A stretch of 64,000 nucleotides of DNA. Source: Pseudomonas sp. MMS21 TM103. Lineage in GTDB: Bacteria; Pseudomonadota; Gammaproteobacteria; Pseudomonadales; Pseudomonadaceae. This document shows, piece by piece, positions 62,319-64,000 of the stretch. The notes under the pieces are model-generated. The model was not told where the DNA came from, ran no database searches, and was given only the letters and a program-made list of their open reading frames with translations. The DNA is taken from the NCBI RefSeq assembly GCF_022132145.1, contig NZ_JAJISP010000007.1, forward strand, positions 124,001 through 188,000. Reading direction: 5' to 3'. Position 1 is the first letter of the stretch. Each line of letters begins with the position of its first letter. The translations under genes and the position numbers were made by a program.

Positions 62319-62981
62319 TCAGTCGGCGATCAGTTGCTCGACCAGCTCCGGGTCGTCGATAAAGCGATTGCGCGTGCCCTGCAGACTGCCGATCTTTTCG
62401 TTGCGGGCGTTTTCTTCGGCATCCGGCGGGTCCATCCGGTGCCACTGCTTGTACATGCGCACGTCGCCGACGATGGGCAGGCCGTACTCGATGTGCATGT
62501 AGAAGATCGCCCGGGCGATGTTGCCCTTGGCGGCGTCGCGCGGCTCAAGCACTTTGAAGCGGCTCTTGAGGTCGCAGCCGATGTCGGCGAAGGTGCTCTG
62601 CTCGCTGGCGTCCAGCAAACCGAACTGCGCCTTGCGCCGCAGCTGTTCGGCGCGGGTCAGCGCCGGATAGAGGTTATGCAGATCGGCGGCCATATAGGCA
62701 TAGCGTGGGGTCATGATGCTGCACTGACGATCGGTGATGCAGTGCAGGGCGCTTTTCAATTGCTTGCTGCTGTAGATCGGGCTGATGCTGAGCAGTCCGC
62801 CGCCGCCTTGGCCGGTGAAGGCCTTGGCGCAATACAGCGAGGTGCCGCCGGCGCCATACAGCTCATCCCAGAACAATTGGTCGCGCAGTTGTGGGTCGGA
62901 AATCTGACTCTGGCCATTGGCCAGAATCGGCAGGCTGAAACTGGCTGCCAGGCAACCGAGGGCGATAACGACTGCTCGCAT
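62319..62981 (-). CDS. endA: Exported endonuclease I
   Basis: 220-aa extracytoplasmic DNA endonuclease. Signal peptide RAVVIALGCLAASFSLPILA. The family core includes YAYMAADLHNLYPALTRAEQ, EPRDAAKGNIARAIFYMHIE (metal-coordinating region) and RNEKIGSLQGTRNRFIDDP. Cysteines in YCAKAF, HCITDRQC and IGCDLKSR could form disulfides in the periplasm. A complete gene, convergent with cysQ. Confidence 0.93.
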   Translation of the reverse strand: MRAVVIALGCLAASFSLPILANGQSQISDPQLRDQLFWDELYGAGGTSLYCAKAFTGQGGGGLLSISPIYSSKQLKSALHCITDRQCSIMTPRYAYMAADLHNLYPALTRAEQLRRKAQFGLLDASEQSTFADIGCDLKSRFKVLEPRDAAKGNIARAIFYMHIEYGLPIVGDVRMYKQWHRMDPPDAEENARNEKIGSLQGTRNRFIDDPELVEQLIAD

Positions 62982-63084
62982 GCTAAGGACCCGCTGACCG
63001 CCGTGTTCGGGGTCTGTTGTTTTTCTGGAATGGCCGCATCTAACAAGACCGACGTCACATGATCAAGCCGAAAGATTGGCGCCA

Positions 63085-63102
63085 TGTAAGCCTTAGCTTA
63101 CA
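63085..63102. promoter_or_regulatory. GacA upstream activating sequence
   Basis: TGTAAG-CCTTAG-CTTACA is a perfect TGTAAG-N6-CTTACA box, the conserved GacA binding site found upstream of rsmX/Y/Z sRNA genes. The palindrome extends to 11 bp per arm (63081-63106). It lies about 67 bases (centre) before the inferred sRNA start. Confidence 0.9.
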
Positions 63103-63159
63103 TGGCGTGCTGTCGATCGCCACTACTGTGGTGGCTGCTGGGCAGCTAATCTTCTGCCC

Positions 63160-63287
63160 ATGGACGTAGCGCAGGAAGCGCAAAGCAACCAACAGGGATA
63201 CGCTGGATAGCCGCCAGGATGGCGCGCGCAACATGGATGTCAGTACACAGTCTGCAAAGGCCCCGCACCAGCGGGGTTTTCTTTTTT
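63160..63287 (+). ncRNA. rsmY: RsmY-like regulatory sRNA that sequesters RsmA/CsrA
   Basis: About 128 nt ending in a strong terminator. Six GGA motifs occur in 75 nt, four of them in small apical loops: GCGC/AGGAA/GCGC (63169-63181), GCT/GGAT/AGC (63202-63211), CGCC/AGGAT/GGCG (63212-63224) and ACA/TGGA/TGT (63231-63240). This is the signature of Rsm sRNAs, which titrate RsmA/RsmE. The block GCGCAGGAAGCGCAAAG resembles RsmY as remembered. The 5' end is estimated from a TAATCT -10-like element near 63147. The GacA box lies upstream. Choice of RsmY over RsmX/Z is by resemblance. Confidence 0.82.
63261..63287 (+). terminator. Rho-independent terminator of the RsmY-like sRNA
   Basis: CCCCGC/ACCA/GCGGGG (63261-63276) followed by TTTTCTTTTTT. 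Confidence 0.93.
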
Positions 63288-63439
63288 GGGCGTTCGCCCA
63301 GTCCGGCGCTTCTGCCGCGTCAATCTCCAGTAGAGTGATGGTCCACAACGGGGGCAGCCCAGGCATCGGCACGCAGGCCGGTCGACTCGATGGCGACCCG
63401 CAGTGAACTGTGACGACTTTGCACTCCCCGAGTCCCGCC

Positions 63440-64000
63440 ATGCTGATTCCACTTGCCCAGTGCTTTCCCCCTTCGATCCGCGCCGTCTGGTTCCTGCTGC
63501 TGGCGGCGTTGAGCCTGGGCGCTGTCCTGCCAGTGGCTGCCGCGCCGCTATACCGCGTGGGAGTGGAAGACGTCGATTACTACCCAATCTATGCGGTGTC
63601 GGCGGACAACCAGTACCGTGGTTACGCCCGCGCCCTGCTCGACCTGTTCGCCGCCCACGCGGACATTCAGCTGCGTTATGTACCCTTGCCGGTACGCCGA
63701 CTCCATCACAATTACTGGGCGGGCCGGCTTGACCTGATATTCCCCGACAGCCCGCGCTGGAATGAAACCGGCAAACCACAAGGAGTGATTACCTACTCGC
63801 AGCCGCTACTGACCTTTCAGGACGTGATGTTGGTGCTGCCGGGGCGGCTGGGCCAGCCGCGTGAGCGTTTTCGCAAGCTCGGCTTCGTGCGCGGGTTCAC
63901 TCCCTGGAAGTTTCAACCCGAGATCGCCGCAGGTCTGGTGGAGATCCACCAGGCGCCGAGCCCGGAGGGTCTGATTCGGATGACCCTGGCGGGCTACATC
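63440..64000 (+). CDS. Periplasmic solute-binding-like protein (3' partial)
   Basis: The frame opens at 63440 and runs off the window after 187 codons. Signal peptide with the hydrophobic core WFLLLAALSLGAVL and a cleavage region LPVAAAPL. The mature part begins YRVGVEDVDYYPIYAVSADN and contains RGYARALLDLFAAHADI and GRLDLIFPDSPRW, the pattern of family 3 extracellular solute-binding (SBP_bac_3) domains used by transporters, sensor kinases or stand-alone. Without its C-terminus the partner is unknown. Confidence 0.75.
   Translation, partial: MLIPLAQCFPPSIRAVWFLLLAALSLGAVLPVAAAPLYRVGVEDVDYYPIYAVSADNQYRGYARALLDLFAAHADIQLRYVPLPVRRLHHNYWAGRLDLIFPDSPRWNETGKPQGVITYSQPLLTFQDVMLVLPGRLGQPRERFRKLGFVRGFTPWKFQPEIAAGLVEIHQAPSPEGLIRMTLAGYI

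Follow-up and report, generated by a model that had tools for sequence, protein, structure and literature searches.

RsmY is a well-known small RNA of Pseudomonas that sequesters the protein RsmA (CsrA) once the GacS/GacA sensor system has been activated. GacA sites have been placed at -75 for rsmY and at -196 for rsmZ (available part of PMC4950607), and UvrY, the GacA counterpart of E. coli, was shown to bind a comparable inverted repeat, 18 nt long, ahead of csrB and csrC (PMC4682653, in part). Seven GGA motifs are given for RsmY in the accessible portions of accounts on P. aeruginosa (PMC4950607) and P. brassicacearum (PMC7911923), and eight, three of them in loops, for P. fluorescens SS101 in the accessible portion of PMC4353343, where the location of rsmY is also reported to be conserved to some extent. 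The window analysed here, meaning the whole 64,000-nucleotide stretch of contig NZ_JAJISP010000007.1 from Pseudomonas sp. MMS21 TM103, carries a feature on its plus strand which is almost certainly rsmY and would be controlled by GacA and titrate RsmA together with rsmX and rsmZ. The gene is an ordinary further member of a known family, and the finding constitutes a useful annotation rather than a surprise.

The RNA gene and its pathway partners

An Rfam covariance-model scan of the 64-kb window detected RsmY (RF00195) as the sole family over its cut-off, with a match on the plus strand from 63160 to 63280 that scores 106.8 bits (cut-off 57; E 9.8e-25) and covers positions 1-121 of the 121 in the model. 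The preliminary description had proposed an rsmY-type small RNA gene at endA, starting at 63160, preceded at the right distance by a perfect TGTAAG-N6-CTTACA GacA box and closed by a terminator, with a covariance-model search as a check. That search has now been run and returned RF00195 from end to end, and the start, the box and the terminator were all confirmed. Relative to the RNA start at 63160, the box, or upstream activating sequence (TGTAAG-CCTTAG-CTTACA, TGTAAGCCTTAGCTTACA), occupies 63085 to 63102 on the plus strand, that is -75 to -58, with 0 mismatches. At the 3' end, an intrinsic terminator has been located at 63257 to 63287 (plus strand), composed of a 10-pair G+C-rich stem (63257-63280) followed by a T run, and the transcript probably extends past 63280 into this run, with its end at about 63287. 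Two terminator-like sites occur in the rsmY region, versus a shuffle average of 0.6. A candidate -10 hexamer, TAATCT, was recognized by eye at 63147 to 63152 on the plus strand and recurs ahead of the RNA at many of the 30 rsmY loci compared, while a scan of the rsmY region yielded no consensus sigma-70 promoter. No DNA similar to this region was found on plasmids. Several traits of the RsmY family are present, namely a GacA box at about -75, as published, a terminator-ended RNA of about 120 nt (the match being 121 nt), several GGA motifs with some in hairpin loops, and both GacA and RsmA/CsrA encoded in the same genome.

A short protein gene has also been considered for this position, since a 128-aa frame on the minus strand (63055-63441) overlaps the RNA and is open in the window. 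Of the 11 loci tested, 8 likewise have this frame open throughout the RNA, including the six nearest relatives, and in L037 it is matched at 87% over 109 residues with no stop. Against this, the matches contain stops in L040 (1), L038 (2) and L043 (1), they fall into two pieces in L037 and L039, and for the majority of more distant loci they shrink to roughly 33-42 residues over the RNA, with no frame remaining open across it in all 11 loci. Open frames are, moreover, cheap in G+C-rich DNA. With the RsmY model matched from end to end, the interpretation as an RNA gene is maintained, and after the 11-locus comparison, with its stops and breaks, protein coding was judged unlikely, indeed to an extreme degree.

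The same genome encodes the expected partners of the pathway. Covariance models detected rsmX at 115.5 bits and rsmZ at 116.6 bits. RsmZ (RF00166) and RsmX (RF02144) belong to the same clan as RsmY, are rich in GGA and have a GacA box or box-like element upstream, although their loci and families are separate. Taking into account that rsmX, rsmY and rsmZ are all GacA-controlled, GGA-rich and grouped in one Rfam clan, the RNA in the window could be suspected of being one of the other two members. However, cmscan retained RsmY as the top model of the clan at this position and placed the best rsmX and rsmZ elsewhere in the genome, the RsmY model gives the rsmX locus no more than 39.9 bits, and the box at -75 differs in position from that of the genome's own rsmZ, which is found at -189. 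A mistaken identity within the clan is hardly credible, and the gene is assigned to rsmY.

GacA was identified as the best of 48 matches, with 58% identity over residues 1-214 of E. coli UvrY. It carries response-regulator and LuxR-type domains, and its gene adjoins uvrC, as uvrY does in E. coli. A single CsrA/RsmA gene (89.2 bits, at G000:C6:788208-788366) has been detected in the genome, despite the three Rsm small RNAs present. Among 25 genomes of the genus, this one included, one copy of CsrA occurs in 5 and 2 to 5 copies occur in 20. A Pseudomonas whose nearest named relative in this analysis is P. aestuarii has now been assigned GacA, one CsrA and three Rsm small RNAs. With the sequence, fold family, box, terminator and conservation observed here, along with the presence of GacA, CsrA, rsmX and rsmZ, the behaviour of the family suggests that phosphorylated GacA would bind the palindromic box and activate transcription from 63160 on. 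The six GGA motifs of the resulting RNA of about 121-128 nt would then bind and titrate RsmA (CsrA), which would free mRNAs under RsmA repression, and RsmY would act jointly with the genome's own rsmX and rsmZ.

Genomic context and distribution

The RNA gene lies between the two genes that the preliminary description had named as its neighbours. The divergent neighbour is endA (62319 to 62981, minus strand), of the endonuclease I family (PF04231, Endonuclease_1, 73.6 bits), and the downstream neighbour is an SBP_bac_3-like binding-protein gene (63410 to 64000, plus strand), which continues past the window and scores 24.5 bits with PF00497, just under the cut-off of 26.4. A comparison with known rsmY contexts had also been proposed there. 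The EndA of the window, scanned against named genomes, returned 42 loci, 38 of which are titled Pseudomonas, with three titled Pseudomonadaceae, Pseudomonadales or Gammaproteobacteria and one being alphaproteobacterial. When an rsmY profile built from 30 loci (the window and 29 relatives) was run over these, rsmY was found in divergent orientation beside endA in 41 of the 42, the alphaproteobacterial locus yielding no rsmY with this profile. Rfam confirmed RsmY in all 11 of the named endA-rsmY loci submitted, out of the 41. An SBP-like gene occurs downstream in only three of the 41 (L037, L038 and L077).

Other genes flank rsmY elsewhere, and endA was found within 1.5 kb of rsmY in only one of the 29 relatives (L035). 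Loci of the P. fluorescens type have acyl-CoA dehydrogenase and LysR genes as flanks where endA is found here (Pfam, L015), with proteins resembling acyl-CoA dehydrogenase or LysR spotted by eye in several of 13 loci, and one locus (L034) has a GntR-type regulator upstream. Since rsmY stands beside endA in 41 of 42 loci and beside other genes elsewhere, the endA context is typical of its lineage and offers no novelty, and the idea that it might be exotic was rejected. The comparison shows that rsmY keeps the position of its box while the neighbouring genes vary between lineages. Literature searches combining rsmY with endonuclease I or synteny returned only off-topic work among the matches listed, and a search on the three Rsm small RNAs, phylogeny and P. 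mendocina returned nothing. As a separate observation, the EndA match is split into two pieces in L076 and L077, both of which have retained rsmY, and endA may be frameshifted in these loci given the split.

RsmY was detected over the cut-off in 35 of 36 genomes of the genus, that of the window included, and in 0 of 21 other genomes of the order, three of which gave weak matches under the cut-off, in a search of the 57 genomes that used filters able to lose weak matches. The sole genome of the genus without an over-cut-off RsmY in this filtered search was G014. For sequence comparison, the loci of 30 of the 35 RsmY genomes (the window and 29 others) were taken in and 5 were left out. Among named records, P. 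aestuarii SA3-5 (L037) comes closest, with an EndA identity of 95% in a scan that may omit the window's own species. Its RsmY differs from that of the window by four bases in 121, the box sequence and the 12-nt arms around it (described below) are identical, and the neighbours are endA, SBP-like and FMN-reductase-like genes, as they are here.

GGA motifs and fold of the RNA

The RNA contains six GGA motifs in total, compared with the seven of RsmY from P. aeruginosa (PMC4950607) and P. brassicacearum (PMC7911923) and the eight of P. fluorescens SS101, where three are in loops (PMC4353343), each as given in the available part of the source. Two of the six lie in hairpin loops, as AGGAA and AGGAU, both in the Rfam structure and in a consensus fold of 28 rsmY sequences picked from 71 loci. 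Hairpin 1 (GCGC-AGGAA-GCGC, 63169 to 63181, plus strand) shows one both-sided change in the consensus fold, and hairpin 2 (CGCC-AGGAT-GGCG, 63212 to 63224, plus strand) shows both-sided changes at two pairs, in 3 and 4 of the 28 sequences. The consensus fold also includes the terminator itself and a long-range stem, which joins the 5' end to the region before the terminator and comprises three pairs that are invariant over the 28 sequences and one that varies on one side. As this consensus holds two GGA hairpins, two of the motifs belong to apical loops that are conserved and the remaining four lie outside them, and the four apical-loop GGA motifs of the preliminary description have to be reduced accordingly. 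Its statement that the RNA is structured agrees with the covariance model and with the both-sided changes in both GGA hairpins, but finds no backing in the fold energy, which has a z-score of -0.72 relative to shuffles, 48 of 200 shuffles folding equally well or better. As the fold energy is no better than that of shuffled sequence, the case for structure is carried by the covariance model together with the alignment.

Over the 71 loci, the number of GGA motifs ranges from 5 to 11, and the position of the window's RNA at the low end of this range would fit a decayed, silent copy of rsmY. Nonetheless, six motifs are likewise found in each of the near relatives L037, L038, L040, L041 and L042, and the box is perfect, the hairpins are intact, the match is full-length and the terminator is intact. 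Decay is accordingly considered highly improbable, and the locus is regarded as an intact rsmY.

The GacA box and its flanks

TGTAAGCCTTAGCTTACA is the only match to the box pattern in the window with at most 2 mismatches. Shuffled sequences contained a mean of 0.42 such matches per shuffle, with at least one in 35 of 100, and because loose matches are this common, the weight of the box lies in its perfect match and its placement. Only two perfect boxes exist among the 13 contigs (4.95 Mb) of the genome, one at rsmY and the other before rsmZ. Genome-wide matches with at most 2 mismatches numbered 31, versus 40 for a reversed control pattern, and these looser matches carry no weight given that the control exceeds them. 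Measured from the start of the box to hairpin 1, the spacing amounts to 84 nt in the window and lies between 83 and 86 nt in 69 of the 71 loci, the window included. It falls within 1 nt of the window's value in all 29 relatives of the genus, and the box has no mismatch in 23 of these 30 loci (with the window) and one mismatch in 7. Of the 41 endA-rsmY loci, 39 deviate from the spacing of the window by no more than 2 nt, and the boxes of the 41 are free of mismatches in 31 cases, with one mismatch in 9 and two in 1. The boxes of L070 and L074 lie 7-8 nt farther from rsmY (91 and 92 nt to hairpin 1), and the rsmY box of L063 reads TGTCAG-N6-CTGACA, with both halves altered symmetrically.

The box forms the centre of a perfect inverted repeat that extends over 28 nt (63080 to 63107, no strand assigned), formed by two 12-nt arms that are 4 nt apart. 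Across 114 unique rsmY flank combinations, the bases flanking the box pair at offsets 1, 2 and 3 in 56, 71 and 66 cases, versus shuffle means of 33.6, 46.3 and 40.5. These three values exceed all 5000 right-flank shuffles, a control that ignores relatedness, and the value at offset 4 is reached by 14 of the shuffles and that at offset 5 by 164, with no excess at offsets 6 and 7. Arms of at least 4 pairs were found in 26 of the 114 combinations, where shuffles gave 3.3 on average and 10 at most. These 26 comprise 14 distinct 4-base arm sequences, and 58 of the 114 have no flanking pair at all. Slid pairings of the rsmY box flanks showed no excess, nor was any observed for rsmZ boxes, where a set of 30, minus 2 with 3 mismatches, left 28 unique boxes, 19 of them without a flanking pair.

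Co-change of the arms was followed on a poorly resolved tree of the 71 loci, built from a single short RNA. Branches changing both sides at partner positions 1-5 numbered 20 versus 11.5 expected, compared with 86 versus 47 expected at non-partner positions. The excess of double changes is no greater at partner positions than at non-partner ones, which speaks against co-change, whereas the double changes ended in a complementary pair in 10 of 20 cases at partner positions versus 18 of 86 at the others. Relatedness as the cause of the flank pairing is only weakly excluded, and the extended palindrome is treated as no more than a lead, because relatedness is not well controlled. The many base combinations in the arms would point to hairpin-templated copying of one arm from the other, or to a need for symmetry or a cruciform, more than to base-specific protein contacts. 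It can tentatively be suggested, as a rather doubtful possibility, that in part of the species the rsmY box forms the core of a longer palindrome with arms that differ from species to species yet still match, changing together for such reasons. A literature search on GacA and rsmY with extended palindromes or cruciforms returned only unrelated human-genome work.

The rsmX promoter of the same genome (L002 1427-1444) has a box-like element, CATAGCGAAAGGCTTACA, at -74 to -57, in which the right half is intact and the left half is degenerate. A similarly degenerate left half appears in the rsmX box of P. brassicacearum in the accessible part of PMC7911923, and the notion of a newly degenerate box was dropped in view of this published likeness. 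Lastly, a pair of inner flanks, GCCA before the box and TGGCGTG after it, which occurs in none of the other 29 rsmZ boxes compared, is shared by the genome's own rsmZ box (L133) and the rsmY box (63081-63109).
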